IMG/VR virus record: IMGVR_UViG_3300020193_000026 | Span: 1-56,048 of that record | Source of the DNA: a virus | Direction: 5' to 3' (one strand) | Length of the DNA: 56,048 nt | Part shown: piece by piece, positions 12,794-49,409 of the stretch | Numbering within the stretch: position 1 is the first letter of the stretch | Layout of the letters: every line of letters begins with the position of its first letter | Notes under the pieces: model-generated | Told to the model about the DNA's origin: nothing | What the model saw: the letters and a program-made list of their open reading frames with translations, nothing else | Database searches by the model: none | Translations under genes and position numbers: made by a program

Positions 12794-12813
12794 TTTTGGA
12801 GGACATTTAAGAA

Positions 12814-13950: not shown

Positions 13951-13963
13951 GGAGTAAAACAAG

Positions 13964-15271: not shown

Positions 15272-15280
15272 CTAGTTAGG
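15267..15280. repeat. 14-bp perfect palindrome across the capsid gene stop codon
   Basis: CCTAACTAGTTAGG reads the same on both strands. It begins two bases before the stop codon of the major capsid gene. A near-identical palindrome overlaps the stop of the next gene at 15829. Confidence 0.85.
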
Positions 15281-29349: not shown

Positions 29350-29838
29350 ATGAAAGTAACACAAAAGACAGCAGTAAACGAGTTTCTAGAAGTAGACGAA
29401 CCGGAAGTGAAGACGGAAGTTCCCGAAGAAGAGGAAGAAATCCTTGACCCATTGGATGCAATGGCTAGGCAGTTCCCAGATGCTCCGCCAAGAAAGATGG
29501 TAGAAGGTTGGAAGGAGCTATATGGAGACGTCTACGCCTTCGTCCCGGATCCCACATCTCTATATCTTTTGAGGCCACTCCGCCGTATTGAGCACAAGAA
29601 CATCGCCAAGGAGATAAGAGCCTTCTCTGATGGCCCAACAGCAAGAGAAGATCCTGCCCTGGTCGAAGAGATGATGCACGAGAAAGTTGTTATGCTTTGT
29701 CTGTTGCATCCCAGCGCGTCACCAACATTCCTTACAATGAGCAAGGCCGGATTGATGCCAACTCTGTTCAACCTCGTGATGGAGCACTCAAAGTTCCTCT
29801 CACAGCAGAAGGCATTGGAAGTTTGCTACAGACTCTAA
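29350..29838 (+). CDS. Candidate tail assembly chaperone 1
   Basis: 162 aa. An acidic N-terminus (residues 15-35, PEVKTEVPEEEEE) is followed by a helical domain with LRPLRRIEHKNIAKEIRAF and a Met/Leu-rich end. Small helical proteins between tube and tape measure are typically tail assembly chaperones, which coat the tape measure before tube growth. I looked for a slippery sequence joining it to the next reading frame and found none convincing. It starts behind AAAGGA. Confidence 0.76.
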   Translation: MKVTQKTAVNEFLEVDEPEVKTEVPEEEEEILDPLDAMARQFPDAPPRKMVEGWKELYGDVYAFVPDPTSLYLLRPLRRIEHKNIAKEIRAFSDGPTAREDPALVEEMMHEKVVMLCLLHPSASPTFLTMSKAGLMPTLFNLVMEHSKFLSQQKALEVCYRL

Positions 29839-30919: not shown

Positions 30920-33900
30920 ATGCCTAAAGACACCCCTATTCCAGGAGTCGATCGTCGTCCATATATTGAAGTCACCGACCACAAACAGGCCGACTACAAT
31001 AGATGGAGTAATGCGCTCAAATACGCTGCTTTCGGTTCTATCGCAATAGTGGGTGTCCGCTGGAGTTCAACTGCCATCAAATTTCAGATAGATCCTGCGA
31101 AGTTCAGATATCTGTCTGACGGTCTCAATAAACCCGGGGTGACCCCCTGGTATGAGGTTCGAGGAAAGACGCTTGATCCCGTAACAGGCAAGATCGAAGC
31201 CACACTTGGCGATGTCTTTCTGGAGCTGACCAAACGTGCTGAGGAAATCGCTGGCGGCATCCCTCGTACATTCGACGTTCATAGCTTCCTCAGTCGACGA
31301 ATTACAACAACGCCCACTTCAAGTCTCCGCATTAATAAAGAGCACCTAGAAGGGGCAGAGAGCCACTACCAGGCCCTCTTGGGCAGGAAGTTGACTCCAG
31401 AGGAGTCCGTCTTTGGATTTCAGGTCGGACCTTTTTCAAAGGACGACCTCGAGGCATATGTCAGGGCCCGCGCATCAAGAGAATCTTTAACGCTCTCAGA
31501 TGCCGAGGTGATGAAAGAAGTTGACGAGATGATTGCCGAGGGGCGCGCCGCTCCAGGAAAAGCCCCGGGCATGTTCTCCGTCCATCCCGACGGAACACTC
31601 AAAGAGCTAGTGGTCCCAGATGTTAAAATTGCAGAGCGTTTGTGGAATCCAGATGGACCTATCGATCCATCTACTGGGCTTCCGAAGTACAGACACGTAA
31701 TGAGAAGCACGGACGTTCTTACGGAGTCGATGGGCGGGAAACCGATCAGTCACACGAATGAACTCCCGTACATAGTATACAAAACGCCCGAATCAACCAA
31801 GCTTACAGGTACAACAAGGGAGCTTGTAGAGGCCTTCATTGACCCAAAGATCATAGAAGGTGCAGCCGATAAGGTAATGGGAAACACAGCCAGGGCTGTC
31901 GCTCAGGAGGGAGAGGTCTTTGCCAAGAAGATGTCAGAGAGATATCTTCGTATGTTGGATCAACCATTAGAGGCCATTGAAGACCTATTCAACAAGCAAG
32001 ATCTGTTTGCTGGGGTCCGTAAGACGAAGAGCTATTCTTTCTTGAAGAACCTATTCGGTACGGGCGGCGACTACTCAGGCACGACGATGGATCTGTGGGG
32101 AAAGCACTTAAAGCGCATCGCCCCACTAGCACTTGGCCTAACAGCTGCATATGAGCTAGGCAGCCGAGTCACAGAACTTGTCGCAGATAAGTCACTGGCT
32201 CAGGTCGGGGGCTCTGCGATAGGGGCGACACAAAGGATCTATGCGAGCATCTCCGACAAACTCGGGCTAACGACACTTAACAAAGCCCAGGAGCGAGAGG
32301 CAGAGGGGTCCCATAGATTACTTGGGGTGTTAGCGTTCCCAATGGCTGGTGCTTTGACCGGCGCCACTGTCGCCTCTTTTATGAATCCGGTTGTTGCTGA
32401 TGCAGGAAAGACCGGCTGGTTAACGGCAAGAGAGGCAGTCCATGAACTCCCAGACTCTTTAGGGGCCCTCAAGAAAGATCTCCCCATAGTCGGGGACCTA
32501 AGTAAGCCGATGACTCGAGCCAAGAAGTTTGCGGTTATCGGGGCTGCGATTGGAGGAGCTCTGAGTCTTCCGTTCTTGCTTGGATCCTTGGGATCTAACA
32601 AGACCTATGACGAGACGGTCGCAGAGCAGCGTGGGGAGACTGAGGTCGCGGTGCGCAAGGGTGCATTCTGGGAAATGGGTCGTACAGACATCGAAGGAGA
32701 GCAGACCCAATACTACCGTCCAAATTGGTTCGCGCGTCTTATGGATGCCCCAGCGGATGAGTTGCAGTTTGGCGACTACGCAGACAAGCCTTTTACTAGA
32801 TTACTGAAAGGGGTTATAGACCCATACTGGAGAGAAAAGGAACTCTACTATCAGCGCCCCTATCCGATCACAGGACCTGACACGAGTGGGTTCGGTCCAT
32901 TGGGGACCCTCTGGGGCATGACCATCGGACGCGTTATTAAGCCGCCGAAGATTATGCATGCGGACGAAGTCTCTCCAGGCGGTCGCGAAGGTGTATCCGC
33001 TGGAGAAACCGTCCAGTTTGGGAGAAACGTTTCTGAGGCCCCTAGCGAGGCATTAGGGGGCATTGGAGCCCAGGCTGTTGGCTCACCATACGACCAGTCG
33101 TTTCTTGCCGGGGAAATGGCCTACAAGGCCACGGAAGCCTCTGGCTTGCCAGGTTTCGTCTTCTCTGCTGTGAAGAAGGCGATAACCGGAACCGGTGACT
33201 TTGGAGTCGACGACCCGGTCTTAGCAAGCTTTGCTGATGTTGGATCGATGCGAGATAGGTTCTGGGACTCAAATGTTGGCGGTGGCTTTACAACGACAGA
33301 GGCACTCAGGCGCTTCATCCCGAAAGAACGATTCCAATTGGAGAAGGTGAACCCAATCCGCAATGAGATGCCATCGTGGATGCCTGGTCCGGGAGGCTAC
33401 GTTGATTTTACCCACGGAGATCCGTACCAAGCAATTCCGGAGGGTGAGTATCGCTTGCCGGGGAGTGGTTATGAATCCCGATTTAAGGAGCTTGCCGGTG
33501 TAAATCCTGAGGATTATCCCGACATTCATAAGTACAGGATCCTAGGAGACGTCGCCCCTTACTCTCAAGAGTTCAAGGATATCTCTCGAAAGGTTGAAAG
33601 TCTTGCACAGTCGAATCGTCTTTCTGAGAAAGACAGGACTCTGTATGAAGGAACGAAAGCAGAATTCCGAGAAAGAGAGGACAAGGTCAAGACCAGAGAA
33701 GACCCCGACTCCTTCGTCGGAAAGTATTGGGCAGCCATTACGAAAGCGGGAAGGATGAACCCCGTCGAACACCTTCTCCCCATCTCCCCTGTTCACAAGT
33801 TTGCCGGTTCAGTAGATATGATAACAGAGTACGAGGACCGGAACCTTTACAGCACAAGATCCCCAGGATGGGACAGCCCGATAGAGGATTTTGTCAAACC

Positions 33901-34828
33901 CGCATTGTACAATGCTGCTCACATCTTTGGCTATGAAGGGGTGCCAGCCAGCGTCCAGGAGAAGAGAGACCTCACCGAGTATTTCGATAAGCTAGAGTAC
34001 ATGAAGTACAAGCGCCTTGAAGCCAACGCAAGAGGACAGGGGGAGGGTAGAGCGGCGTTCGCTTTTGCCAGAAAGGCCGAGTACACAATGTTCGGCGCAG
34101 ATCCATATACGGACATGGACACGGTTAAGAAGATACTCCCTCGAGAAGAGCTCCCATTCTTTGAGAAGTTTGTCAGTGCAGACTCCCCAGAAGAGAAAGG
34201 GCGAATCCTCGAGATGGTCCCTCGCTACACTCGAAAGTTTTATACCGCTCAATGGCAAAAGCAGATCTATGCAGGCTTAGCCGCCAAAGGGGACCTGACA
34301 TCTGATGAGCAGTCAGCAGTTATGGCGATTGAGGCATCTAGGGCGACAGAAGGAGAGGCGACGAACACGAACACATGGAACGAGTATATTGGTAAAGTAG
34401 AAGGGGGAAAGGTTAGAAGCAATACGTTCCCCGACTACATAAGAGCGAAGAGGCTGGAGTCTTACTTTGACGAATCGCCGTTCGACGCACCAAAGGCCGA
34501 CTGGATTGGCTATCACCCTGGGGTGGCAATGGATGACGTGAAGCTGAAGGTTGTTCAGGCTCAGGGGCTCGACTATCACGACTTTGATCTGTGGGAAAAC
34601 GATGAGCGCATGGCCGCAAGGAAGCCATATTTGGACGAAGCCGCCAACGACCTAATGAGTCCATCGATTATGCGAGAGGACATTTTGCAGTCATTGACTG
34701 CACTGAGGCTTAACGATTTAAATGTGGAAATTGTTCCAACAACAGGAGATCAAACAAGAATCACTCTTGACGTTGGGACAAACAGAAGGAAAGAACTAGA
34801 CAGGGAAATGAAGAGGTATAATAGGTAA
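30920..34828 (+). CDS. Probable tape measure protein
   Basis: 1302 aa. This is the first of three giant genes after the chaperones, the expected tape-measure position. Gly/Ala-rich apolar segments lie at about residues 33-49, 396-418, 467-489 and 534-558, of the kind found in tape measures that insert into the host membrane during ejection. The other parts are long, hydrophilic and mixed. A conserved tape-measure signature is not visible. The alternative is an ejected virion protein, with the 1851-aa neighbour acting as tape measure. The stop overlaps the next ATG by one base. Confidence 0.62.
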   Translation: MPKDTPIPGVDRRPYIEVTDHKQADYNRWSNALKYAAFGSIAIVGVRWSSTAIKFQIDPAKFRYLSDGLNKPGVTPWYEVRGKTLDPVTGKIEATLGDVFLELTKRAEEIAGGIPRTFDVHSFLSRRITTTPTSSLRINKEHLEGAESHYQALLGRKLTPEESVFGFQVGPFSKDDLEAYVRARASRESLTLSDAEVMKEVDEMIAEGRAAPGKAPGMFSVHPDGTLKELVVPDVKIAERLWNPDGPIDPSTGLPKYRHVMRSTDVLTESMGGKPISHTNELPYIVYKTPESTKLTGTTRELVEAFIDPKIIEGAADKVMGNTARAVAQEGEVFAKKMSERYLRMLDQPLEAIEDLFNKQDLFAGVRKTKSYSFLKNLFGTGGDYSGTTMDLWGKHLKRIAPLALGLTAAYELGSRVTELVADKSLAQVGGSAIGATQRIYASISDKLGLTTLNKAQEREAEGSHRLLGVLAFPMAGALTGATVASFMNPVVADAGKTGWLTAREAVHELPDSLGALKKDLPIVGDLSKPMTRAKKFAVIGAAIGGALSLPFLLGSLGSNKTYDETVAEQRGETEVAVRKGAFWEMGRTDIEGEQTQYYRPNWFARLMDAPADELQFGDYADKPFTRLLKGVIDPYWREKELYYQRPYPITGPDTSGFGPLGTLWGMTIGRVIKPPKIMHADEVSPGGREGVSAGETVQFGRNVSEAPSEALGGIGAQAVGSPYDQSFLAGEMAYKATEASGLPGFVFSAVKKAITGTGDFGVDDPVLASFADVGSMRDRFWDSNVGGGFTTTEALRRFIPKERFQLEKVNPIRNEMPSWMPGPGGYVDFTHGDPYQAIPEGEYRLPGSGYESRFKELAGVNPEDYPDIHKYRILGDVAPYSQEFKDISRKVESLAQSNRLSEKDRTLYEGTKAEFREREDKVKTREDPDSFVGKYWAAITKAGRMNPVEHLLPISPVHKFAGSVDMITEYEDRNLYSTRSPGWDSPIEDFVKPALYNAAHIFGYEGVPASVQEKRDLTEYFDKLEYMKYKRLEANARGQGEGRAAFAFARKAEYTMFGADPYTDMDTVKKILPREELPFFEKFVSADSPEEKGRILEMVPRYTRKFYTAQWQKQIYAGLAAKGDLTSDEQSAVMAIEASRATEGEATNTNTWNEYIGKVEGGKVRSNTFPDYIRAKRLESYFDESPFDAPKADWIGYHPGVAMDDVKLKVVQAQGLDYHDFDLWENDERMAARKPYLDEAANDLMSPSIMREDILQSLTALRLNDLNVEIVPTTGDQTRITLDVGTNRRKELDREMKRYNR

Positions 34829-37800
34829 TGGGAGACTTTTTTGGTGATTATGTAGCACCCGGAATACTCTTGACAGGTGCAGGCGTAACAGCATACCGCA
34901 CATACAAAGATATCTCTGCGAAGGGAACCATGACCGCACCATGGCGTATCCAGAAGCAGTCATCAGCCCTCTATTCAAAGATCAAAGGACTGCACGAAAA
35001 CAGGTATAGGCCAACTGCAGCCTCTATCGCAGAACTATTCTTTCCAGATTTTATCAATATCTTTCCTGGGTCTACCCCAGAGACCCGCACGGCCGGGCAG
35101 GAGATGATGGGGAGGATCCGATCATCCGCCGTCAGCGGACTTATATCCAACCATCAGCTCAAAGCAAGAGCAATTGAGCTGGGTATCACACCAGAAACAA
35201 TGGGCGGACTTACTCCTGACAAGATTGCAGCCCTACTCGGGGCCACTCCTGACAACCCATATGGGATCGATGCATATAGAGAGTATCTGTCAAGAGTCGC
35301 CAGAACCAACGACCTCGGAAGGCTAAAGACAGGGGGTGAAGGGGCTCTTAAGTCTTTAGTCGAAGCTAACCAGAGTGTTGCAAGAAATAGTGGTCTTGGA
35401 GAGACACTGAGTGCCATGAAGTCGAAGGGGGCGTTTTCTGGAAGCTCGACCAAGGCTGGTTTCGAGAACGTCCAGTATACTCAGCGAAAGCTCATGGCAG
35501 GGCTGCCAGGTCGGGACGACCTTGTCATGAAGGTTCATCAGGTCTATGAACGGGTCCGGGCACTTGCTGCTGAGAATCCTAAGGCAGGGCTCTCAATGAG
35601 CCTAACAACCTTACAAGAAGCCGGAGAAACAATCTATACAGGATATACGATTAGATCTGGGAAGAAGGTTTTGTCCCTTCCCTTCGAGAACGCAAATGGG
35701 ATAGTTCGGACAGGGCCGGGAGGCAGAACTCGAAGTGTGGCAAAGTGGGCGCTCGCCGAGAATATTGAAAGCATCCTTGGGACATTCACTGATGTTAGTC
35801 AGATCGCTCGCCGGGCAGATGTTGCCATCACGGACTACATGCTGAATGGAGGCTTACAAGATTTCGTAAAGGGGACACTATCAAACAGCCACCTGACTAA
35901 GCAGCTGTGGAGTAAGAACAAGGATGATCTAGGAAAACTCTTTGTTCCTACTGTTGCTAACGAAGCATCAGTCCGCCGTCAGCGAGGGATCTTGTCAACA
36001 GCTCGCTCTGCTGTAAACCCCGCACTCTCCCCTGCCCAGATCGAAGTCCTCAAGAGACGACTGATAGACATTGGGCACCCGGCTGTTGCGGGGCTGAGCG
36101 CTAATCAAGTTACGGGTGGTAATATATTTATTGGGGACTATGTTTACGGCTCGTCTCCGATTGGACCAAGTTCAGACGCCAAGGCTGTGGCGCAGAGCAT
36201 GAGAGAAGGCGTCTTCTCCGGGCTCGGAAGTAAGAATCGCAGCACCCCGGCAATTTTTGGCAAAAAGCAGAAAGCGATGGGGGACATAAGAGCCAGGCTC
36301 AGAGTTATGTCTGTCCCCGAGTCTGTGGCTAATGCTTTCTTATCTCTGGCAGGAAGAGCAGATGTCCACCTGCACGAAGACGAGCTGATGCTACTGGACA
36401 ACAATCTTCCATACACAAAGTTCCATTCAACAGGAACCATCGGCGAGAATGCGGTCATGTCCGAGAAGATCGCCAAGATAGGAAAAGCAGAGACCCCACA
36501 GATGCAACGGCTTCAGACGATGCTGCGCACAGGCCTCACCGCAGACGGGATTGGTTGGTTGGAAGCGGAAAGAGAGGGATTGATACAGCTTGCCAATTCT
36601 CCGGGAATAGACGATGCCAAGAGGATCGCATACATTGACGAGGCACACGGCATCAATGAGATGCTTGAGACGATCCGGTTTAAGCCGGGAGAGTTTATTG
36701 GAATGACAGAAGACGGGGTTATGCTCAATGTTCCGAGCAATGCTGGCACTTACACAATCAGGAGTATGACTGATGATGGGGTTAAAGGGCTAAAGCTTGA
36801 GGCACTAATCGACAGAAAGCTCGGTCTTGGGGACAAGGTCTTCGGCACGAAGGGCATTATCAAGGAGGAGGCAGCAGCCCGTTTTGGTCATAAGATGGGG
36901 GCTATGTGGGAGTATCTAAGAGAGACCCCTGAGATGATTGAGGCTCTGGAGAAGGGGGACCACGAGAAGATGAAGGGGGTACTGGAGCCGACCTATAAAC
37001 AGATTGTGGCTGCTGAAAAGGCCGCTCTTGGGAGGGGTGAGGACCTGCCTGACCTCTGGAAGGTTATCGACAGTGAACAGTGGCGGGCGGCTACAAGAGA
37101 GACGCGCGGGGCTCAACTCCTGTCGGTACAGGGGACAAAGAAGATCGGTGATGCGAACATGGGGGCACTAGTCCAAGGGCTAATGGAAGAGCTACACGCT
37201 GAACTCCCTGGCATAGGTAAGGCCGGGGTGGAGCTACTCGACAAGGCTCGTTGGCGAGACACGACCTTGGACGAGTTTCTTCAAATGTCCCCAGAAGATC
37301 AGCTCGTTCGCAAGAGCCAAATAGAAGCACTGCAGACTTCGAAAGCGCTTGGTCTCGAGGAAAAAGAATTTGCCTCTTTAACAAAGCGAAGAGAGGGGAT
37401 ACTGAGCCTGGGCTTTGACGACAGCAACGGCGCCGTCACTATCATCGACGATGGCTCCCATAAGATGACAGACAGATTTGACAAGGTTGTAGAACTAACG
37501 GTCCAGTCCCCGGGACGACGAGGGAGGTGGAGCTCTGAGAGATTTTGGGTGGACCTGGAAAATAACAAGGACTTCTTCAGTACTTTGCCAGAGACATTCA
37601 GACAGGAAGTTGGGTCCTTGTCGGGGATCAAGGATAAGAGAGTCCGGATGGGAAAGTCGATCCGTCTATACAAAGAAGCGATGGAAAGCGGACTTTTTGC
37701 AACCGAGACTGGCCGCAAGGCACGCATTGCCGCTCTCGAACCACAGCTTCAGTTTGGGGCTTTGAACAGAGACGTGACTCCGCACGGCAGTCCAATCCTT

Positions 37801-40383
37801 ACTGGTGGTGCTGGCAGAGAAGGATCGTTTTCTCTGCAAACACTACTGCACACTCAAGCACAAAGAGGCGCTGTCGCAGAGGCAGGACTTGAGGCCATGG
37901 GCCGAATGTCTGGCAACACCCGTGACGAGGCCATGGAAATTTATAAGAGAAACGCATACTTCGATAGAACTTCAGATTATGCTGGTGCCATAAAGGTCTC
38001 GGACATGAGCAAGGTGGCCCCGAGTACGATTGAAGGCCTCTTCTCCCCTAGCCAAGAGACACGAGACGCAGCTTTTGGGGAGATGCGCAAGACCTTTAAT
38101 GTAAAGGGCGACCTTGTCTTCGACACCGGGAATGCTGAGAAGAGGTTTATCTACCATCCTCAAGGTCTGAGCACACACACGGGAGGATATACTGTTGCGT
38201 CGAATATGCACATTCCGACAGAGATGGACGCCGCACTGCAAGGGATCCTCGAAGGGGGAAGGCTTGGGAACAGGCTTGACCAGGGCCTGCTCGGATCGTA
38301 TGCCCAATCACTGGCAGATATAACTTTGACAAGAGATCAGAATGTTTCGAGGGCGTTCTCAGGGCACGTCCAGGGGTCGATGCGCATGCAGGCTCGCTCT
38401 GGCGCTAACGCAGACTTCTTTGAGTTCTTGGCAACGGATAAGAATTACAGTCACAAGGTCGGAATAAAAGAGAGTAACTTAATAGAGATGATGGACTCTG
38501 CAGGTATCGCGGGAGACGCCGCAGACGAAATGGTCAATGAACTCAAGGGCGGGAGATTGGCGGGACTTATACATCGTGCTCCAGACACAGAATTGCACCG
38601 TATTACAGGGGCAACGGCATTTAGCCTAGACGAAGCTTTGGGGAAGTACGCAAATTCTATGATGGATGGTCAAAAGAAGAACATTGATCTTCTCCACTGG
38701 CTTCGAGAGATGAGCAAGTCAAAGCATGATCAGGTGACGACTAGAATTGTAGAAGACGCAGCCAAGTCTCAGGAACTTCTGGAGAAGATTAACGACTTAA
38801 GCGCTACCGTGAAAAAGAGGTACAAGCCTTCGCTTCTCAGAAGGAAGTCAAAGGAGTTTATTCAAGAGCTTCAGACTAGGAAAAACAACGCAAGGGCGGC
38901 CCTTGACCAGATCTTGGCCGATAACGGCATCAATCTTGAGGGGAAGGCTGGCCCAGAAGGAGGTTGGAACAACTTCTTCAGGAAGCGGAACGCGACTAAT
39001 GAGAGACGATTTCTAGAGGAGGCTGTCCGTGACGTCTATAAAACAAAACATAAGGGGGCTGCCATGTGGCTTCCTAAGTCTTTTGAAGGAGTACTTGGGG
39101 CCGACTTCGACGACGACGCAATAAACTTCTTTCTCGTCAAAAACGAGAATACAAGATACGACTTACGAGAGAGGGTCTTGCATTCCGAGAAGCTGAAGGC
39201 TGAGTGGGGTAATCAATCCGCGAGTGGTGCTCCAGAGGAGGCGCTTGTCGAGAGATTGCGTCCACGGAACGCAACAATTGATCAGCTACATGGAGAAGAG
39301 GACTTCCTCTATAATGTGAGACAGAAAGAGCTGTATGCCAACCTGAAGAGCAAAGATCCGTCCGTGATCACCCCAGAGGCTTTGGACCCATCGAGTGAAG
39401 TTTGGAAGATGAGACAGCGAGCCCAGAATCAGATGGCCATGATCGAGAAGGCTCAAATCGGCTCTATGAGCAATGCTACAGATTTCGCACGAGCGATGGC
39501 TAGAGCCAGCGGCGCAGCCTCTCCAACGGCTCACGCCAATTCTAGACTCTTCGCCGAGATGTTGCTGGGCATTATGCCAGAAAGCATCTTGAAAGTTCGA
39601 CAGGTCCCTATCAACCAAGTCGAAGCTGTTGGTAACTATGCGAAGAGCATGGAAGATGCCCTTCGCGGTGAGCACGGAGCGGGTGCAGGGGCTGTGGCAG
39701 AATTCCGTGAGAACTTCAGACGTCTTCACGGAGTGAAGTCCGGGAGCATAGTGGACAAGATCGCTTCTGACGAAAATATTAAGGCCATCTTGGAAGCTGG
39801 AGTCATGGCCAAGAAGAACAGGCACGAGTATAGCCTTCTAACTGCTCTAAAGAATACAGAGGTGACAGACGCAACGAGGCAAGCAGCCATGAATGCTGCA
39901 AGAGAATTCGGTGGAACAACAATGCAACATGAACTCTACCGAGATGCAACCAGGGGAATAGTAGAGGAAGTTACTCCGCTGCAGAGGAATTTGAAGAACA
40001 CCGCATCGTCATTCTCCGAAGCTTATGATATTATGCTAAAGCACAAGAAGCCACTGGTTCTTGGTGCTGGGTTGGCCATTGCAACGTCGATGCTTCTGGG
40101 CTCACCAGGCAGTATCTCCTCAGAGGAGGCAGACGCTGCTGGCGCCAGGCACTCCACGGGCTCGCCTACGACCCCACCAACGGACATGGGGCACTCTGCA
40201 AGAGTCGCTACAAATACCGGTAGGGCAGTCAGAATCAGAGGAAGTTCTAATGGGGATGTTGACCCGAGTGTAATTGCAGCAAAGCTGGGAGAGCGGTTCC
40301 CCGGTTCTAGTGTGAACTTCACAGTGAACGACTATCGTGAGCGGATTAACCAAGAATATATTAGGAAGAAGTTAGACAGATGA
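34828..40383 (+). CDS. Putative virion-associated two-barrel RNA polymerase
   Basis: 1851 aa. Three segments, in order, fit a single-chain RNA polymerase of the double-psi-barrel class. (1) Residues 663-678: RKLGLGDK-x4-KG-II, like the beta-subunit lysine motif RKLxVGDK...NKGVI, with K670 and K675. (2) Residues 1422-1435: VLGADFDDDAINFF, keeping the three metal-binding Asp of DFDGD (D1426, D1428, D1430) between apolar strands. (3) Residues 1541-1555: KAQIGSMSNATDFAR, like the conserved helix after DFDGD in two-barrel polymerases. The 750-residue spacing is close to that across a joined beta-beta-prime pair. The N-terminus and residues 1741-1758 are membrane-like. It lies between tape measure and hub and overlaps the hub by 4 bases. 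DFDxD is described for crAss-like phage virion RNA polymerase. The polymerase call is inference from motifs. Confidence 0.7.
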   Translation: MGDFFGDYVAPGILLTGAGVTAYRTYKDISAKGTMTAPWRIQKQSSALYSKIKGLHENRYRPTAASIAELFFPDFINIFPGSTPETRTAGQEMMGRIRSSAVSGLISNHQLKARAIELGITPETMGGLTPDKIAALLGATPDNPYGIDAYREYLSRVARTNDLGRLKTGGEGALKSLVEANQSVARNSGLGETLSAMKSKGAFSGSSTKAGFENVQYTQRKLMAGLPGRDDLVMKVHQVYERVRALAAENPKAGLSMSLTTLQEAGETIYTGYTIRSGKKVLSLPFENANGIVRTGPGGRTRSVAKWALAENIESILGTFTDVSQIARRADVAITDYMLNGGLQDFVKGTLSNSHLTKQLWSKNKDDLGKLFVPTVANEASVRRQRGILSTARSAVNPALSPAQIEVLKRRLIDIGHPAVAGLSANQVTGGNIFIGDYVYGSSPIGPSSDAKAVAQSMREGVFSGLGSKNRSTPAIFGKKQKAMGDIRARLRVMSVPESVANAFLSLAGRADVHLHEDELMLLDNNLPYTKFHSTGTIGENAVMSEKIAKIGKAETPQMQRLQTMLRTGLTADGIGWLEAEREGLIQLANSPGIDDAKRIAYIDEAHGINEMLETIRFKPGEFIGMTEDGVMLNVPSNAGTYTIRSMTDDGVKGLKLEALIDRKLGLGDKVFGTKGIIKEEAAARFGHKMGAMWEYLRETPEMIEALEKGDHEKMKGVLEPTYKQIVAAEKAALGRGEDLPDLWKVIDSEQWRAATRETRGAQLLSVQGTKKIGDANMGALVQGLMEELHAELPGIGKAGVELLDKARWRDTTLDEFLQMSPEDQLVRKSQIEALQTSKALGLEEKEFASLTKRREGILSLGFDDSNGAVTIIDDGSHKMTDRFDKVVELTVQSPGRRGRWSSERFWVDLENNKDFFSTLPETFRQEVGSLSGIKDKRVRMGKSIRLYKEAMESGLFATETGRKARIAALEPQLQFGALNRDVTPHGSPILTGGAGREGSFSLQTLLHTQAQRGAVAEAGLEAMGRMSGNTRDEAMEIYKRNAYFDRTSDYAGAIKVSDMSKVAPSTIEGLFSPSQETRDAAFGEMRKTFNVKGDLVFDTGNAEKRFIYHPQGLSTHTGGYTVASNMHIPTEMDAALQGILEGGRLGNRLDQGLLGSYAQSLADITLTRDQNVSRAFSGHVQGSMRMQARSGANADFFEFLATDKNYSHKVGIKESNLIEMMDSAGIAGDAADEMVNELKGGRLAGLIHRAPDTELHRITGATAFSLDEALGKYANSMMDGQKKNIDLLHWLREMSKSKHDQVTTRIVEDAAKSQELLEKINDLSATVKKRYKPSLLRRKSKEFIQELQTRKNNARAALDQILADNGINLEGKAGPEGGWNNFFRKRNATNERRFLEEAVRDVYKTKHKGAAMWLPKSFEGVLGADFDDDAINFFLVKNENTRYDLRERVLHSEKLKAEWGNQSASGAPEEALVERLRPRNATIDQLHGEEDFLYNVRQKELYANLKSKDPSVITPEALDPSSEVWKMRQRAQNQMAMIEKAQIGSMSNATDFARAMARASGAASPTAHANSRLFAEMLLGIMPESILKVRQVPINQVEAVGNYAKSMEDALRGEHGAGAGAVAEFRENFRRLHGVKSGSIVDKIASDENIKAILEAGVMAKKNRHEYSLLTALKNTEVTDATRQAAMNAAREFGGTTMQHELYRDATRGIVEEVTPLQRNLKNTASSFSEAYDIMLKHKKPLVLGAGLAIATSMLLGSPGSISSEEADAAGARHSTGSPTTPPTDMGHSARVATNTGRAVRIRGSSNGDVDPSVIAAKLGERFPGSSVNFTVNDYRERINQEYIRKKLDR

Positions 40384-43300
40384 CATTGCCAGAACAATCA
40401 GCAGGAGCTCCTGTTAACCGGGAGAATGATGAGCCATTAGTCTACGACCCAGAAAGTTATGAGCTGCCTCGCCAGGGGGCCATTACCAGAGGTCTATTCG
40501 AAATCAACGGGATCAGATTCCCTGTCCCTCCTCAGGGCATCTCTATCACAGAGCAGAACCAGAACTTCAATTTTGAGACCCTAAGAACGCGAGAGTCTAC
40601 CAAGATCAGATCCGGTCACGGACGGGTGGATATCACAGTGGTGGCCCTGTTTACCGGCAATACAACCGCTAGCGTCGAATTAGTCGAGAACGCCCCTGCC
40701 CCGGCAGACCCATTGACGGCAATTAATGAAACATTGATGCCGATTCTTTACAGCCTAAAGAAGATGCCCCTATGCTTCTTGGACAATGAACTCCTAAGGG
40801 CGACCCTGCCGATCGTTCCCGGGGAGGTCATCGGAGCCTTTGTCCGCTCTGTTAACGTGGGGACAGTTCCGGGCATGCCATACACGCTCTCGGTAGAATT
40901 TCAATTTGTCTGGTTCAACCATCGCCCTTTCACCCCTCGCCTGCGATTCAGAAAAGAGTGGTATGATCCTGCTAATACAGTAGATCATTTCACAGGACTC
41001 TATCACCAAAACACCTCTCAATACAAAGAGAGTGTCGGTGCCGAGGACGACAGTGGTAGGTTCCAGTTCATCAAGGACTACGGTCATCCCAGTACGGTAT
41101 TTAACGCCACGGCTGTCCATACCTCGACAGAGAACATAAGAGAGGCCCGCCCTCTCCTCGAGTGGCTTTGGCCTTATCGTTATAAGTCAACAAACCGGGC
41201 CATTCGCTCAGAAGATCAGCCAGGCGGTCGTGGTGAAGAGCGCCCCTACACAGAGAGAGCATTGGCCGCAATGCCTCCGTTCAAGCTGGAAAGTTTCGAC
41301 CACAGTGTCGCCTTCCAGTTTATGATTCCACAAGCGCCAGGAGTGATCGAAACCCCAGAGGGGAAGAGGTCCCTGACAGATATTATCAGCAAGTTCGCCC
41401 CAGCACAGAAGCCAATCCCCGAACCGGCGCCAAGGAATGCTAATGTCAACGCCAATGCATCCAATCCAGCACCTTCTGGTGGCGCCTCCATCCTCGACTG
41501 GTGGAGACCATACGTCGGAGCTGGACAGTCTGGAGAAGATGTAATCGCGACATATAATAACCCGAATACCAAAAAGCCGGTCACACCCGCAGAAAAAGCA
41601 CAAGCAATGCTCATCTACACAAGGATGATGGACGAAGGATATACTCCAGCATTTGCTATTGCTGCGATGGTTCATGCATCTTTTGAGGCAAGCTTAAAAC
41701 CAGAGAGTTCACACCCGCGTGGTATTGCACACGGACTCTTCCAGCTGAATAGGTACGTTGACAAAAAGGGGAAGAGTCGGGGCGCAGGGGCCTCAGACCC
41801 TAGTTTTATGGAGGGGAGGATTGCTGGCACAAGGCAGGAGGCTGAAGCACATCCAGAGAAATACTATAATGCACATAACGCAAATATAAACATTTCAAGG
41901 ATCATCTCCCTGATCAAAGTCGAAAAAAACCTGAGAGCCGTAGCAAAGAATAAGAACCTGTCACCGGCAGAATGTTTTGAGGCCTTCTTCTGGTCTGGTG
42001 TTGGCGCTGGCTATAGGAAAATTAGTGCATCAAGAGACGCAGAAGAACTTGCAGAGTATGAGAAACTTTATGCAGGAAGAATCGGAATGGCCGAAAGGCG
42101 TATCCCTGGGTGGAACGACCCTAGCTTCAACCTTGGCAGCAGGGCAACCCTGCCGGGAAGGATCACGGCCTCCGACTTGAGCATCGCTACAGCGGATATC
42201 CCGCTAGAGCAACGCTTCAGCGAAATCTATAACTCCGAAGAGGCCCTCCGTATTGCCATGGAGAACCATCTACCAGAATCGAGCATGATGCCAACTCAAG
42301 AGGAATTGGTGCAGCTGGCCCTTGACCTTGCCGGGAAGACTTCTGACAGACAACTCGCATCAGAGCTGTCCGCTCTAGCAGCCGCTGTCTCACAGAACGT
42401 ACTAGTCGTAAAGCACGCGATTACGGGGAAGATCGCCCAGCTCGGTTTCTATGAATTAGACATAGCCGACTTTATCGGTGCAGTTGTGCCAATGAACCTC
42501 GCAGTTACGTTCGGCACGAACTTCGCCATGATGCCGCTCGACGGACATCGTTTCGCCACAACTCAGTATGTAGGCGGACAGCAGACGGCAGCCACAATCA
42601 GCTTCAGGGTCCTGACCCCAATCGGCAGGCAGTTTGTCAGAGAGTTTCAGTCAATGATCAATGCCTACGAGAATTCAGCGATTCATTTTAGAGAATTTGC
42701 AAAACAAAGAGGCATCGAGATCTTCAACCCCCTGCTCAACTCGATGAATATCAGCAACGTCTTACTAGAGACCTCTAGCATAGACACAGTAACAGGCGCC
42801 CCCGACGATCTCAATATTGTACTGAGACTCGTAAACAATACCATCAACGACAAGAGTCGCAATACGCTGCTCCCAGTAGAAGAAGTTGGCTACGACTCTC
42901 TTGGGGCTAAGGTCCTGGATCTTTTGCTAAAAAAGAACTTCATCAGCGCAGTTTATACACTATTAGACTTAGACAAGGGGGATGAAGAGAATCGGAAGTC
43001 GGCTCATATGGTTACAGAGACGTATGAGGATGGACTGATTGTTACTGCGCCAGGATGGAATGTTGAAGGGAAGTCGAACTTGTTGGAGAGATTGCTAAAG
43101 GAGAGGACTGCCTTCGCCCTCGACTATCTCCCTTTTCGCCGCCGTGAGCGACTTTCGGACGGACGCTACAAGTTCTTCTACAAAGACGGACAAACAACAA
43201 TTATATCAGACAGTGAAAGGGACCCTCTCAGCTATCCAGAGAGAACAACTGTTGTATCGAACAAGGTCGCCGAAAAATTAAAGCAGACGCTGTCTATCAA

Positions 43301-46300
43301 ATTCGAGGCCTTGAGTTATGGGAAGGGGGACGTAGCCAAAGAGGCGATAACTAAGCTATTGGAAATGTCCGGGTTTAGGGAAGACTTTGCTGCGAACATT
43401 GGTGACGGGAGTGAGGTCCTGACTCCAGTCCAATACGGGACCGAGATCGGAAGGGCAATTTCCGCAACCACATCAATGCCTAGAGCAGTATTTCAGCTCC
43501 TCTATGGAGACCAAGTTAGCAAGGGTGTCATCTCGACTGATAAATTTAATCGCTGGAGTATCGGCCCGGCTCGCAGAGTCCTGAGCGCCCTCGGTCGGCC
43601 CAACGGGACAGAAGCGGCAGACCCTGACTTCGCTGCTTTGTTCGCCTCTTCAATGAGGGGAGTCGGATACCAGAAGACAAACCAGGCTTACCCAGATCTC
43701 CTATTGCCTCCGAATCCAATCTCGGGCTTGTGTATCGACACCAACCCCGACTTCTTCTTGGTAAACGAGTCTGACGTAAAACTCTGCAATACCGAAACAC
43801 TGAAGATAGTTCACGGTGCAGGCGCGACAACAACAGGCGTCAAGGGTATTGGGTTTGCCAAGGGTAGTGCGGCAATTGACTATGGCCATGAGAATTTCAA
43901 GGACATCTATGGAGTAGGGACGGGGACAGGACTCGCTCCGGCCAATGCAGGACGTGACAACATGTACATTGGCAACACGGACGGCAGGGCGGCTGTAAAC
44001 AACGGAGTCTTTAAGACAAAGGTTGATGGTGAGGTTGTAAAACGTAGCGACACGCTACCGCAGACGGATTATACCTTGGCGGCCTTGCCCGGCAGAGAAG
44101 CCAAGGTGCAGAACAATATTGCAGAGCGCAAAACAAATGAAAAGTATAAGCGTGATTTGTCGATGGAGGTCCACTACGCAGAATCGGCCTACAAGAAGGA
44201 TCTAACAGATGGCTTCCTTTCTGGTACCTCTGAGGGGGAACAGTTGGAGAACCTGAATAAGATCCAGCACGTCTTTAGCCCAAATACCTACAACGAATTA
44301 TTTAAGACATTTTGTGATAGGTACAAGAGTGACCATTATGCAGTGCGTCGTGCGTTCCCTACATTTAAGGTCTTCTTCATTGAGGAAGATGGAGAACTCG
44401 ACTTCGCCACACCGGAAGGAGTGGCAGGAGATGTTGTAAACAAGCTGGCATCCGCCCCATCACTAGATGATTTCTATGGGGTTAATGCAATCAAGGAGAT
44501 AAGCATCGTCCACAATAAGGACAGCGCCGTCTCAACCTGTGTCATTCAGGTATTGGACTTAGATGGTGTCTTGTATAACAGGAAGTTCGATGCGGGGAAG
44601 GGCGGTGACGCGCTGAAGGATCTTAGGGGGTCCATCAATTCAGATGGCAGCAGGGTCATGGAAAACAAGCTCACAGACGATAATAACCCGTTCTACAGCA
44701 CCATGATCAAAGAGGGCATGAAGGTTATCGTCAAGTTTGGTTACTGTAATGACCCCACGGAGCTGGACACAATATTCATTGGCCAAGTTGCTCAATATGA
44801 AGGCAACCAGGTCATCACAATTGTATGTCAAAGCTATGGGGCAGAGCTCGTGGCAAAGACATTCGGCAGCGACCCAACGAAGAACGTAGACCTTTGGAAT
44901 ACGACCACGGCAGACTTAGTCCACGATACGATGGATCGCGAGGAAGTCCGTCACTTCGGACGTTGGCGCTTGTCTGATATTGACATTACCGGAGAGCTAT
45001 TTGGGCATCAAAAGATGAGGCCAGATGGCAGGGTCAAGACAGTCTGGACCTGGAGGCCAAGTGTTGTAGACGACAACATCTTCGTCCCCCCTGTCGAAGA
45101 ATACTCAAGCCTGTGGGCACGCCTTTGGGGTGACCTCCACTATGTCTTCTGGAACACAACCATTTGGGACGTGTTCAAAGAAATGGAATTACGCCACCCA
45201 GATTATGTGGCCTACCCAGTGCCTTACGGGCAGGGGGCGGACGCTCGAATGACGATGTTCTTCGGCCACCCTGATATGGAGTACCTGTCTAGGCCAGCCT
45301 TGGATAAGTTCGAAAGAGACGGAGAGTTTACAGCAGGAAACGTAAGCCAGATGGAACTGCATGATGCGCTCTTGAAGGTCGACAGGCTGGTAAATCGTTC
45401 AACTAACGGAGGGCCAGTGAGAGAAGAAGTCGCCCTGGCACGAGCGATAGAGGCTACGACGGTCGGCTTCAACGCGCGCGTCTTCGATGCGGCAACGGGG
45501 GTCTACGTTGAGGTCGACGACCCAGCCCAGACAGAGCAGAACCTTCGTGCACTAGCAAAGCAGATTGGGGCCAAGGAGGAGCTATTTGTTACATGGCACC
45601 CAAACGGCAAGAGGGCTTTTGCTGAACTTTCTCGACTAGAGGCTGAGGCTAGGGCAAAGGCAGAGTCAGAGCAGAACTTGAGTTCTGGCTCTCTAGGAAA
45701 AGATTACTCCAGAGTAGACAGTGACTCCCTCTACCGGACAACAGTCGCCTGGCAGGGAACTCGTTTGCGTCCATTCAGAAACTATGAATTGGTGACCAGT
45801 CTGCATGACATCCTGAAGAACAACATTCGTACAGATATCTCAGACTCGTACAATAGTGTTGAGCTGCATTACTCTGACAGCACGGTGAACTTTGGTACGT
45901 TTGACGAAACAGAGCCTGAGACATTGGTGGTTAATGCCGACGATAATATTAAAGAGCATCACATTAGGCGCACGATTGAGGCGTGGCCAAACTGCACGAC
46001 TACAGACTTGGCTAGACGTTACGCATCCCAGCTATTGGCGAACTCATTAAAGAAGAGCTATAGAGGTGAACTTGTCATCCTGGGCAAACCGCAGCTGAAG
46101 CCATATGACATTATTTGGTTAAATGATACATATAGCGACATGGCAGGGCCGATAGAGATAGAAGAGGTTGTTCATACCTTCTCTCAAGAGACCGGGTTCA
46201 TCTCAGAGGTGGTTCCGAACATGATTGTATCGGTTGCTGGAGACGCCAAGATGTTGATGGTGGATGCTGTAGGAAAGTTTTTCGATACGACAGCCAAGGA

Positions 46301-46982
46301 CTTTACCAATGGAGCTATGCTAGGCTTGAGTATTGGAACGGCGTTTGCCGGAGGGGCGATTGCCCTTAGCGCTGCAAAGACCGTCGGCAAAGCTGCCACT
46401 AGCGCAGGGACGGTCGGACAAAAGGCTGCCAGCCTCGGTGGAAGACTAGGGAAGTCTTTCAATATCATTTCGGAAGAGGGCAAGCAGCAGGTGGCAAATC
46501 TAATAGCAAAGGCGAGGGGTCTCGGGCCAAATCTATTAGCCCCATCCACAGGAAGCTCAGCAGCAGGAGTGGGCGGGATTCCCGTCGTAATTGGCGCGGC
46601 CGGTGCGACCACCGTCGCCCTTAACGAGCCAGAGATTAGCAGTGAATCGATTGCCGGATTTGCGACAGGGCTTGGCGTGGCTGGCCTTGCAACAATTCTG
46701 CCTATTACAATAGGTGTCTCTGCAATTGTTGCTGGTGCGTTGCTTTATAAATTCTTAAAGTACAACACAACCAGAGAGCCAGTCATTATTACACCTTTGA
46801 TCAAGGACGGGAAGCCGTATATAATTGGCCTCGAAGGGTTCGAAACTGACGGTTTGTTGTGTACGAACTTTGATGGCGTCAAGAAGACAGCCGGAGGGAA
46901 GTGGGTCCACTTCATGGATGGTATCAGCGAGGCGAACAACATTGTCGCTACTGGATGGGCAAATTTCTGGGCAGGTGACTAA
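40380..46982 (+). CDS. Baseplate hub protein with lysozyme-like domain
   Basis: 2200 aa, multidomain. Residues about 30-200 form an N-terminal tail-attachment-like domain. Residues about 375-600 are a lysozyme/transglycosylase-like domain (AIAAMVHASFEASL with candidate catalytic E436, then GIAHGLFQLNR). At 690-830 is a second tail-like domain that resembles the first. Residues about 1400-1960 are hub-type, ending PYDIIWLND and then IEEVVHTFSQETGFISEV, the pattern of late-control gpD/gp27-like hubs. Residues 1978-2125 are Gly/Ala-rich apolar with at least two membrane-length stretches. This is the central baseplate needle base that digests peptidoglycan. The apolar C-terminus may enter the host membrane. 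It overlaps the previous gene by ATGA. Confidence 0.87.
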   Translation: MTLPEQSAGAPVNRENDEPLVYDPESYELPRQGAITRGLFEINGIRFPVPPQGISITEQNQNFNFETLRTRESTKIRSGHGRVDITVVALFTGNTTASVELVENAPAPADPLTAINETLMPILYSLKKMPLCFLDNELLRATLPIVPGEVIGAFVRSVNVGTVPGMPYTLSVEFQFVWFNHRPFTPRLRFRKEWYDPANTVDHFTGLYHQNTSQYKESVGAEDDSGRFQFIKDYGHPSTVFNATAVHTSTENIREARPLLEWLWPYRYKSTNRAIRSEDQPGGRGEERPYTERALAAMPPFKLESFDHSVAFQFMIPQAPGVIETPEGKRSLTDIISKFAPAQKPIPEPAPRNANVNANASNPAPSGGASILDWWRPYVGAGQSGEDVIATYNNPNTKKPVTPAEKAQAMLIYTRMMDEGYTPAFAIAAMVHASFEASLKPESSHPRGIAHGLFQLNRYVDKKGKSRGAGASDPSFMEGRIAGTRQEAEAHPEKYYNAHNANINISRIISLIKVEKNLRAVAKNKNLSPAECFEAFFWSGVGAGYRKISASRDAEELAEYEKLYAGRIGMAERRIPGWNDPSFNLGSRATLPGRITASDLSIATADIPLEQRFSEIYNSEEALRIAMENHLPESSMMPTQEELVQLALDLAGKTSDRQLASELSALAAAVSQNVLVVKHAITGKIAQLGFYELDIADFIGAVVPMNLAVTFGTNFAMMPLDGHRFATTQYVGGQQTAATISFRVLTPIGRQFVREFQSMINAYENSAIHFREFAKQRGIEIFNPLLNSMNISNVLLETSSIDTVTGAPDDLNIVLRLVNNTINDKSRNTLLPVEEVGYDSLGAKVLDLLLKKNFISAVYTLLDLDKGDEENRKSAHMVTETYEDGLIVTAPGWNVEGKSNLLERLLKERTAFALDYLPFRRRERLSDGRYKFFYKDGQTTIISDSERDPLSYPERTTVVSNKVAEKLKQTLSIKFEALSYGKGDVAKEAITKLLEMSGFREDFAANIGDGSEVLTPVQYGTEIGRAISATTSMPRAVFQLLYGDQVSKGVISTDKFNRWSIGPARRVLSALGRPNGTEAADPDFAALFASSMRGVGYQKTNQAYPDLLLPPNPISGLCIDTNPDFFLVNESDVKLCNTETLKIVHGAGATTTGVKGIGFAKGSAAIDYGHENFKDIYGVGTGTGLAPANAGRDNMYIGNTDGRAAVNNGVFKTKVDGEVVKRSDTLPQTDYTLAALPGREAKVQNNIAERKTNEKYKRDLSMEVHYAESAYKKDLTDGFLSGTSEGEQLENLNKIQHVFSPNTYNELFKTFCDRYKSDHYAVRRAFPTFKVFFIEEDGELDFATPEGVAGDVVNKLASAPSLDDFYGVNAIKEISIVHNKDSAVSTCVIQVLDLDGVLYNRKFDAGKGGDALKDLRGSINSDGSRVMENKLTDDNNPFYSTMIKEGMKVIVKFGYCNDPTELDTIFIGQVAQYEGNQVITIVCQSYGAELVAKTFGSDPTKNVDLWNTTTADLVHDTMDREEVRHFGRWRLSDIDITGELFGHQKMRPDGRVKTVWTWRPSVVDDNIFVPPVEEYSSLWARLWGDLHYVFWNTTIWDVFKEMELRHPDYVAYPVPYGQGADARMTMFFGHPDMEYLSRPALDKFERDGEFTAGNVSQMELHDALLKVDRLVNRSTNGGPVREEVALARAIEATTVGFNARVFDAATGVYVEVDDPAQTEQNLRALAKQIGAKEELFVTWHPNGKRAFAELSRLEAEARAKAESEQNLSSGSLGKDYSRVDSDSLYRTTVAWQGTRLRPFRNYELVTSLHDILKNNIRTDISDSYNSVELHYSDSTVNFGTFDETEPETLVVNADDNIKEHHIRRTIEAWPNCTTTDLARRYASQLLANSLKKSYRGELVILGKPQLKPYDIIWLNDTYSDMAGPIEIEEVVHTFSQETGFISEVVPNMIVSVAGDAKMLMVDAVGKFFDTTAKDFTNGAMLGLSIGTAFAGGAIALSAAKTVGKAATSAGTVGQKAASLGGRLGKSFNIISEEGKQQVANLIAKARGLGPNLLAPSTGSSAAGVGGIPVVIGAAGATTVALNEPEISSESIAGFATGLGVAGLATILPITIGVSAIVAGALLYKFLKYNTTREPVIITPLIKDGKPYIIGLEGFETDGLLCTNFDGVKKTAGGKWVHFMDGISEANNIVATGWANFWAGD

Positions 46983-48191: not shown

Positions 48192-49409
48192 ATGGCAAAT
48201 ACTATTACAGAAAACGCAGATCAGATTCTTGGCCGAGCCATCGACCAGCTTAAGGCGAACTCCCAGATCACTAGATTTACCCCAGGAGCAAAGGCTCGCA
48301 CCCTTTTGGGAATTCTCTCTTCAGAGCTAGAGAGGTTAGAGGACACACTCACCTCTTCTTTGGTGTTAGGTTTAGTTAACGGAGCTAGTGGCATTTACTT
48401 AGACTTCCTCGGAGAGCTGGTTGGGCTTCAGCGAACCCCCCGCTCTGCGGCCGGGGTCTCGGTGGTAGATCAGACAATAGTCGTTTATGTAGACGATCCA
48501 CTCACTTTTGGAGATTTGAATGGCGGCCGCCCAATTATCATTCCTCCTGGAACTGTCATCTCATCTGCAGACGGAACGATCCGATACAGTACCCTAACCC
48601 GTCTCGTTCTCTCCCCAAACGGGAGAGAACAGTTTGTAGGTGCCAGCTCTCTCCGCTTTGGGGCTGGAGGTAATGTCGCCAAGGATGTTCTGACAAAGAT
48701 CAATTTTGAATCCTACGAAACTTTCCCCGTCACGCAACTAAAGGTACGAAATCTTTCTTCTATTGAGAACGGGCAGGAGCCGGACGCAGACAGCTTTTAC
48801 CGACATAAGATAACGAATGCCCTTCTAGCAGCAGAGACCGGAAATTTGACAGCTGTTAGGCTGGCGGCCCTCACAGTTCAATCGGTAGCAGACGTCATCA
48901 TCCTTCCCCTGTTTAGAGGGGTCGGAACTGCAGACCTGATTCTCGACACAAAAGATGGCACGGTCTCTAATGTTCTACTAGAGAGCGTAACAAGATCTGT
49001 GTCCTTTGCTAAGTCCCTAGGAATGTACATACTGACCCGAGCTCCACAGTTGGTTGGGCTGGAGATTGCTCTTGATGTAAAGTATGTAAGAGGGGTGAGC
49101 ATTCCGGACAAACAACAGATTAACAGCAATATCCGTCAGTCTGTAATGGACTTAGTTGCAACCACCCACATGGGGCAGACCCTGAATCTGAACACAATTT
49201 CAAATGCGATTATGAATAGTGACAAAAGGATTGCAGACATCGGGGCCCCAGGAAGACCTCTCTCGGAAGTTATCCTTTGGAGGGATTCGTTAGTTACAGG
49301 AAGCCGACGGCCGGTCCTGGTCAGGGATGCCAACCTCCCGCTCCTAATAGACGAACGTTTAATATTAGAGGGAACCCCCAACGTCGCGATTAGGGTTATA
49401 GAAAAATGA
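48192..49409 (+). CDS. Baseplate J-like wedge protein
   Basis: 405 aa. N-terminal helical region (TRFTPGAKARTLLGILSSELERLEDTLTSSLVLGLVNGASGIYLDFLGELVGLQR), typical of baseplate J-family wedge proteins. Next are a central strand domain (IIIPPGTVISSADGTIRYSTLTRLVLSPNG) and a C-terminal helical/strand part. Equivalent to P2 gpJ/T4 gp6, it forms the wedge ring that triggers contraction. It overlaps the next gene by ATGA. The order gp25-like then J-like is a solid marker of this module. Confidence 0.9.
   Translation: MANTITENADQILGRAIDQLKANSQITRFTPGAKARTLLGILSSELERLEDTLTSSLVLGLVNGASGIYLDFLGELVGLQRTPRSAAGVSVVDQTIVVYVDDPLTFGDLNGGRPIIIPPGTVISSADGTIRYSTLTRLVLSPNGREQFVGASSLRFGAGGNVAKDVLTKINFESYETFPVTQLKVRNLSSIENGQEPDADSFYRHKITNALLAAETGNLTAVRLAALTVQSVADVIILPLFRGVGTADLILDTKDGTVSNVLLESVTRSVSFAKSLGMYILTRAPQLVGLEIALDVKYVRGVSIPDKQQINSNIRQSVMDLVATTHMGQTLNLNTISNAIMNSDKRIADIGAPGRPLSEVILWRDSLVTGSRRPVLVRDANLPLLIDERLILEGTPNVAIRVIEK

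Follow-up and report, generated by a model that had tools for sequence, protein, structure and literature searches.

A candidate two-barrel RNA polymerase in the tape-measure slot of a contractile-tail phage and its divergent relatives

What would an RNA polymerase (RNAP) be doing between two tail genes? The question is raised by the IMG/VR virus record IMGVR_UViG_3300020193_000026, the whole 56,048 bases of which are referred to here as the window and include a module for the head and a contractile tail, with terminase, portal, sheath and Baseplate J. Three tandem open reading frames (ORFs) in this module code for proteins of 1302 amino acids (aa; positions 30920..34828), 1851 aa (34828..40383) and 2200 aa (40380..46982), all of them, like the features of these proteins, the sheath, the 162-aa ORF and the Baseplate J-like gene given below, on the plus strand. 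The middle ORF overlaps the upstream one by 1 base (TAATG) and the downstream one by 4 bases (ATGA), as a first-pass annotation of the window had described. That annotation considered the three to be translated as a unit, which is plausible, although in the late operons of phages overlaps of this kind are frequent and nothing special. Our analysis suggests, with a probability of about 0.75, that the 1851-aa protein is a single-chain DNA-dependent RNAP of the two-barrel (double-psi beta-barrel) type, which is built into a tail protein and delivered by the tail for early transcription. Sequence and models support the superfamily anatomy, the conserved catalytic residues, the position in the tail operon and the C-terminal segment. 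Since RNAP anatomy, a place in the tail module and such a segment occur together, a virion-borne or tail-delivered enzyme is the best reading, and we infer from it that the protein would be present in the virion, located and anchored in the tail, catalytically active, and delivered for the transcription of early genes.

Relatives of the 1851-aa protein were reached via its neighbouring genes, namely those of the upstream 1302-aa protein (called gp145-like here) and of the downstream hub, and 80 of 106 confirmed IMG/VR loci were kept (loci of relatives are given below as L numbers). The named relatives are Acinetobacter phage ME3, Bacillus phage KLEB27-3 and Moorella phage MTATph1. At every locus that is long enough the gp145-like gene is succeeded, usually within 20 bases, by a large ORF, and in ME3, KLEB27-3 and the IMG/VR relatives this middle gene has the gene of the gp145-like protein on one side and that of the hub on the other. 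Of the 71 distinct middle proteins obtained, 59 were treated as complete and 12, cut by the end of a locus, were excluded; the least certain family members are L060, L064, L067, L069 and L073. The family to which the 1851-aa protein belongs is syntenic, diverges strongly in sequence and is found in phages with contractile tails. The middle proteins of KLEB27-3 and ME3 have 2434 and 1603 aa, and gene product gp034 of KLEB27-3 is annotated as 'structural protein' with no named domain. The middle protein of L080 (13234-20148) matches 3'-5' exonuclease families in its N-terminal part (aa 253-375; RNase_H_2 2.5e-5, RNase_T 1.1e-4), suggestive of an exonuclease fused to the RNAP candidate.

An R-x-P motif standing ahead of a DxDxD motif in the same barrel is a trait of the two-barrel RNAP superfamily. 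Both are found in the window protein, where the R-x-P motif R1250-A-P1252 (38575..38583) and the metal-binding DxDxD motif D1426-F-D-D-D1430 (39103..39117) fall in the putative beta'-type barrel, and a putative catalytic lysine pair, K670 and K675, lies in LGDKVFGTKGII (36835..36852) of the beta-type barrel (DPBB-A). At these three places the protein reads GDKVFGTKG, HRAPDTELHRI and GADFDDD, which in our view recall GDK...NKG of the beta subunit and NRAPTLHRL of beta'. In several relatives the sites have the textbook form of beta', such as NRYPTI...KADYDGDF in KLEB27-3 and RHPYIGPYS...AGDFDGDI in L018. The DxDxD motif is present in 55 of the 59 complete middle ORFs against 14.1 expected from shuffled sequences, the copy nearest to the expected place being used for proteins with several; in the upstream gp145-like protein, which served as a control, it occurs in 11 of 73 sequences, with 16 expected. 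The four middle ORFs lacking it are MTATph1 gene 27, L030, L031 and L050, the last of which is a fragment of the upstream gene followed by an ORF (1548 aa) that has the motif.

Several alignments place these residues in common columns. In alignment A8 (32 rows, the window protein first) the three aspartates and both lysines, K670 and K675, are conserved in 32/32 rows, a result that is partly by construction because the ends of the rows were set from picked Lys and Asp positions. The R-x-P motif is the only one in A8 that is independent of how the rows were cut, and there the arginine is kept in 31/32 and the proline in 32/32 rows. Alignment A4 consists of 26 rows without the window protein, for which the Asp motif was the sole reference in cutting; it has the three aspartates and both R and P in 26/26 rows and the lysines in 25/26 and 26/26. 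Cut in the same way, A7 keeps the aspartates, R and P in 7/7 rows, and A5 (the window protein, L010, L012 and L014) has lysine in 4/4 rows at both positions. In an earlier alignment of 41 rows (A3) the Asp motif came into register, whereas the lysine pair of the window protein did not. Counts of R-x-P by regular expression were close to what chance would give in a stretch of that kind and were left unused, the alignment columns being preferred. As read from these alignments, the aligned family members share the full predicted signature of a two-barrel RNAP, that is the Lys pair, R-x-P and DxDxD.

Comparison of family profiles using hhalign agrees with this alignment of motifs. When 21 family profiles or single sequences were compared in 210 pairs, the 26 pairs of highest probability all aligned DxDxD exactly, as did 99 of the 210 overall, figures that may be favoured by the cutting of all segments at an equal distance from the motif. 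The cluster of the window protein is linked to the rest of the family through L014, at 95.6%. In addition, PF00623, the Pfam profile of the beta' barrel, matches the middle gene of KLEB27-3 (7e-5), L081 (1.2e-4) and L077 (4.2e-4), where E-values are for one genome and one family.

Predicted structures point in the same direction. The AlphaFold model of the relative L029 (1081 aa) has a predicted local distance difference test score (pLDDT) of 72.4 and a predicted template modelling score (pTM) of 0.73, and it is the only one in which the beta-type barrel is confidently modelled. Its residues 104-475 resemble second-largest subunits of RNAPs, best of all subunit C of phage AR9 (Z 12.6, root-mean-square deviation (rmsd) 4.9, 275 aligned), residues 574-1048 resemble the largest subunit of Pol IV (Z 11.9, rmsd 4.1, 307 aligned), and residues 47-1061 resemble the single-chain maize RDR2 (Z 11.9, rmsd 4.5, 433 aligned). 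All 50 Foldseek matches listed for this model are RNAP structures, Thermus beta' being the best at 3.6e-4. In a library of viral models the second match, at 3.7e-8, was A0A172Q021, a protein of ME3 that is uncharacterized and represented there by two pieces, with viral RNAPs next; its model was predicted independently of this analysis, and judging by length and rank it is presumably the ME3 middle protein. In the model of the window protein itself, aa 1170-1674 (38335..39849) match RNAP largest subunits by VIA-align, with Z 11.7, rmsd 3.9 and 256 aligned residues for Pol IV and Z 9.8, rmsd 3.6 and 283 aligned residues for E. coli beta'. All 50 rows listed in that comparison are RNAP chains, among them gp62 of P74-26, which is homologous to the non-virion RNAP of Thermus phage P23-45. 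The beta'-like half (beta'/Rpb1-like) of the window protein is thus predicted to have the fold of an RNAP largest subunit. The family-wide DxDxD motif, the aligned signature and this match to largest subunits bear out the first-pass annotation in having regarded the middle gene as a polymerase candidate, and its assignment as a polymerase is now well supported.

The polymerase-like part is followed by a C-terminal region of a different nature. A hydrophobic segment is present at aa 1743-1761 (40054..40110), the best 19-residue window of which reaches 1.55 on the Kyte-Doolittle scale, under the usual transmembrane cut-off of 1.6. In 47 of 55 members, against 2.5 expected, the hydrophobicity maximum of the whole protein (19-residue window) falls at a distance of 90-170 aa from the C-terminus, which indicates that the segment is conserved. 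It is followed in most clusters by a C-terminal module (aa 1782-1851, 40171..40380), as seen on aligning the last 75 residues of 57 members. Membrane-like ends had been proposed earlier for both termini; the C-terminal segment is real and conserved, if moderate in strength, whereas the best N-terminal window (aa 4-22) reaches just 1.16. The RNAP signature is absent from L030 (745 aa, 12204-14441) and L031 (882 aa, 12630-15278), which keep the hydrophobic segment and the C-terminal module. In MTATph1 (L008, 30512-37868) a transposase/ATPase pair, presumably IS21-like, separates gene 27, which has no DxDxD, from an ORF with the C-terminal module; in our analysis the two ORFs were taken as they stand. 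Because the module is retained in these three cases without the motif, the gene sequences suggest a tail protein on which the RNAP core rides as a separable passenger. A C-terminus shared with gp96 of phage P23-45, suggested by eye from a DxDP-V-A pattern, was rejected (hhalign probability 0.3%).

However, a number of results weigh against an RNAP assignment or against its delivery with the virion, in addition to the partly built-in Lys and Asp columns of A8 and the sub-threshold hydrophobicity of the C-terminal segment. Used alone, the 1851-aa protein gave nothing significant in viral contigs, in tblastn against phages, among PDB sequences, in PHROGs or in Pfam. The PF00623 matches come from just 3 of 24 records; in a second set the profile matched the middle gene in 0 of 18 virus records, the closest relatives of the window included (one of the 18, the record of L012, is shared with the first set, and the two matches of the second set lie in bacterial genomes). 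A search of all Pfam families gave L077 an RNAP match at E 0.09 only (residues 1834-1917) and gave L080 no RNAP match. By hhalign, 15 family profiles or sequences reached a best probability of 10% against residues 1-1250 of P23-45 gp96, nothing significant, and comparison of the family with the second RNAP of a relative was not significant either. The profile search with A4 against PDB sequences likewise returned no RNAP. The AlphaFold model of the window protein is weak (pLDDT 63.6, pTM 0.49) and its beta-like half, of low pLDDT, is not confidently modelled; with Foldseek its matches are not significant (best E 0.046), and one of the first five is an unrelated helical protein. Lastly, the absence of DxDxD from MTATph1, L030 and L031 indicates that some members of the lineage can do without the enzyme.

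Large ejected or virion-borne proteins are known from phages T7 (internal core proteins) and N4 (virion RNAP), and the first-pass annotation had turned to these as precedents. They are not the closest ones. The fold and motifs of the window protein are of the two-barrel type found in cellular enzymes and in those of P23-45 and crAss-like phages, for which reason a T7/N4-type polymerase was dropped; that family is absent from the Pfam matches of the window protein and from the fold matches listed for its model and that of L029, a relation being possible all the same. The polymerases of T7 and N4 have an RRM-palm fold unrelated to the two-barrel type (PMC7824862). The best precedent is instead gp96 of P23-45, a demonstrated two-barrel virion RNAP fused to a tape-measure protein, whose relatives G18 and phiFa are described as having a tape measure without the RNAP part (Chaban et al. 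2024, PMC10770324). Both gp96 and the window protein combine a two-barrel RNAP with a giant tail-module protein; gp96 has the sequence RNP about 37 residues before DFDGD and, as seen by eye, a hydrophobic stretch near its C-terminus. They differ in that gp96 is the 5002-aa tape measure of a siphophage with the RNAP at its N-terminus, whereas the window protein has 1851 aa, belongs to a contractile tail and has an RNAP core ending near the C-terminus. Its DxDxD motif is at aa 1426 of 1851, with some 425 residues after it, so that an N-terminal RNAP as in gp96 is not what is found here.

Other phage RNAPs can be compared as well. The virion RNAP gp66 of the crAss-like phage phi14:2 (6VR4) is also a single-chain two-barrel enzyme and differs in that the window phage has a contractile tail; it is not among the structure or PDB-sequence matches listed, which leaves a relation possible. 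In crAss-like phages RNAPs fused to large proteins have been described (cited in PMC10770324). The virion RNAPs of the phiKZ/AR9 type share the two-barrel fold, the non-virion subunit C of AR9 being the best match to the beta-like half of L029, but they are multisubunit enzymes split over several proteins (PMC7824862). In Bacillus phage 0305phi8-36 (NC_009760) an RNAP of the RNAi type (YonO-like), orf99, is a separate gene of the right arm (PMC2147016). A second RNAP of this orf99 type (PF05183) is coded elsewhere in the genome in 5 of 24 relatives' records (L091-L094), which recalls the pair of virion and non-virion RNAPs in P23-45.

The gene order of 0305phi8-36 bears on what kind of tail protein this might be. 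Its orf146, just upstream of the hub gene orf147, was assigned as tape measure on length, and apart from orfs 143 and 144 the same paper sees no non-structure genes in the vicinity of the tape-measure genes (PMC2147016), which makes gp146 a virion protein by implication. The 1851-aa gene occupies the same slot as orf146, the likeness being one of position. The last 60 residues of orf146 are the only part alignable to BtI1 (PMC2147016), and in the window family it is likewise the C-terminal module that is most widely shared. The 1302-aa protein had earlier been called the probable tape measure. It does have two 19-residue windows at Kyte-Doolittle values of at least 1.6 (467-485 and 537-555), and it is nearer to the chaperonin position, that is the 162-aa ORF (29350..29838) in the place of ME3_33 (annotated putative tail chaperonin), an equivalence based on position only; a Pfam search with this ORF gave no match. 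The 1302-aa protein is a homologue of ME3_35, whose annotation states homology with a virion structural protein of 0305phi8-36. Since the middle gene has the published assignment, either of the two may be the tape measure. The gp145-like protein of the window and its relatives carries a strongly conserved motif, NPIRNxMPSWMPG...HGDPY...GE.RLPG.GYE, which is atypical of a tape measure. This protein is also coded on contigs of Paenibacillus sp. TCA20 and Oceanobacillus profundus DSM 18246 (L089, L090), which makes these two possible named hosts.

If the 1851-aa protein is indeed a tail-borne RNAP, its RNAP core would span about aa 520-1700, and its active site would be formed by K670 and K675 in one barrel and by R1250-x-P1252 and D1426-x-D-x-D1430 in the other. 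The segment at aa 1743-1761 and the C-terminal module of about 70 residues might anchor it in the tail, beside the hub coded directly downstream. Produced late along with the rest of the tail, it would be packaged within or on the tail lumen, would be set free together with the genome once the cell envelope is reached, and would then transcribe the first phage genes while the DNA enters, as proposed for P23-45. A gene of the tail operon is expected to be late, and an enzyme for early genes would then have to come with the virion. A membrane channel, and delivery jointly with the hub and the 1302-aa protein, as imagined in the first-pass annotation, could be part of such a process.

The evidence for the virion is indirect throughout, and an alternative is that the protein is a true two-barrel RNAP which is made late and acts late, for instance on late genes, and merely happens to be coded in the tail operon; the second RNAP of the PF05183 type shows that polymerases of this lineage can be non-virion. 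We consider this unlikely. In the relatives found the gene keeps a fixed slot, flanked by the genes of a structural protein and of the hub, a soluble enzyme needs no conserved C-terminal hydrophobic segment and tail module, and both the 'structural protein' annotation in KLEB27-3 and the P23-45 precedent point to the particle. Less probable still is a tape measure or tail-lumen scaffold that has kept an RNAP-like fold without catalysis, as an exapted, dead polymerase. Such a protein would suit the orf146 slot with its published assignment, the existence of middle proteins without DxDxD (L030, L031 and MTATph1) and the fast divergence of the overall sequence. However, Lys, R-x-P and Asp are kept and almost nothing else is, the mean column identity in A8 being 17%, and the retention of catalytic residues amid such divergence argues for selection on catalysis and not on shape alone. 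A two-barrel enzyme of another activity delivered with the genome, such as a primase or a DNA polymerase like PolD, which shares the two barrels (PMC10770324), is very improbable, for even though the product is not readable from sequence, the closest model matches are all RNA polymerases and the demonstrated tail-borne precedent makes RNA.

Taking the tail-delivered RNAP as the preferred explanation, we lean slightly towards a wider hypothesis in which a large and ancient lineage of phages with contractile tails carries a two-barrel RNAP as passenger in the protein of the tape-measure slot, ahead of a conserved, hydrophobic docking module at the C-terminus, and has lost it independently in some members. 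In that case the 'tape measure' orf146 of 0305phi8-36 might itself be such an enzyme, and transcription from the tail coupled to genome entry would be a common strategy rather than an oddity of Thermus phages. To our knowledge, an RNAP fused to a tape measure is known in one phage group only, P23-45 and its close relatives. Our literature search found no report of such a family in contractile-tail phages, though some members may already appear in the phage RNAP survey of PMC10770324 (Supplementary Data 4). The tape-measure-fused two-barrel enzyme of P23-45 is already known (PMC10770324), and what would be added here is a different layout in dozens of large myoviruses. It would explain how transcription can start without waiting for the host enzyme, would extend the two-barrel polymerases by a branch of strong divergence, and would call for a re-reading of hub-adjacent proteins annotated as tape measure or hypothetical. 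The presence of the isolated phages ME3 and KLEB27-3 among the members makes direct testing possible.

The tail is taken to be contractile because a sheath gene is present (23761..26649; phrog_16991, E 3e-50), and a Baseplate J-like protein is coded at 48192..49409 (PF04865, E 4.2e-15). The 2200-aa protein, earlier described as a hub-lysozyme with an apolar C-terminus, matches phrog_20474 at 1.5e-51 and gives tblastn matches annotated as hub or baseplate proteins, and its three windows of at least 1.6 are all C-terminal (1978-1996, 2063-2081 and 2091-2109). The hub part of that description and the apolar C-terminus therefore hold; the lysozyme part comes down to a weak Pfam match to Phage_lysozyme2, below the cut-off at E 0.014. 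In the ORF of the terminase large subunit (899-4021), about aa 146-517 are taken up by an intein that includes a homing-endonuclease domain of the LAGLIDADG type (Intein_splicing 5.4e-13, LAGLIDADG_3 4.8e-18, TIGR01445/TIGR01443). A second intein is probable in the portal ORF (1374 aa, 6784-10908), where LAGLIDADG_3 matches at 2.6e-19 (aa 570-640) and intein-containing NCBIfam profiles match from aa 427 on.

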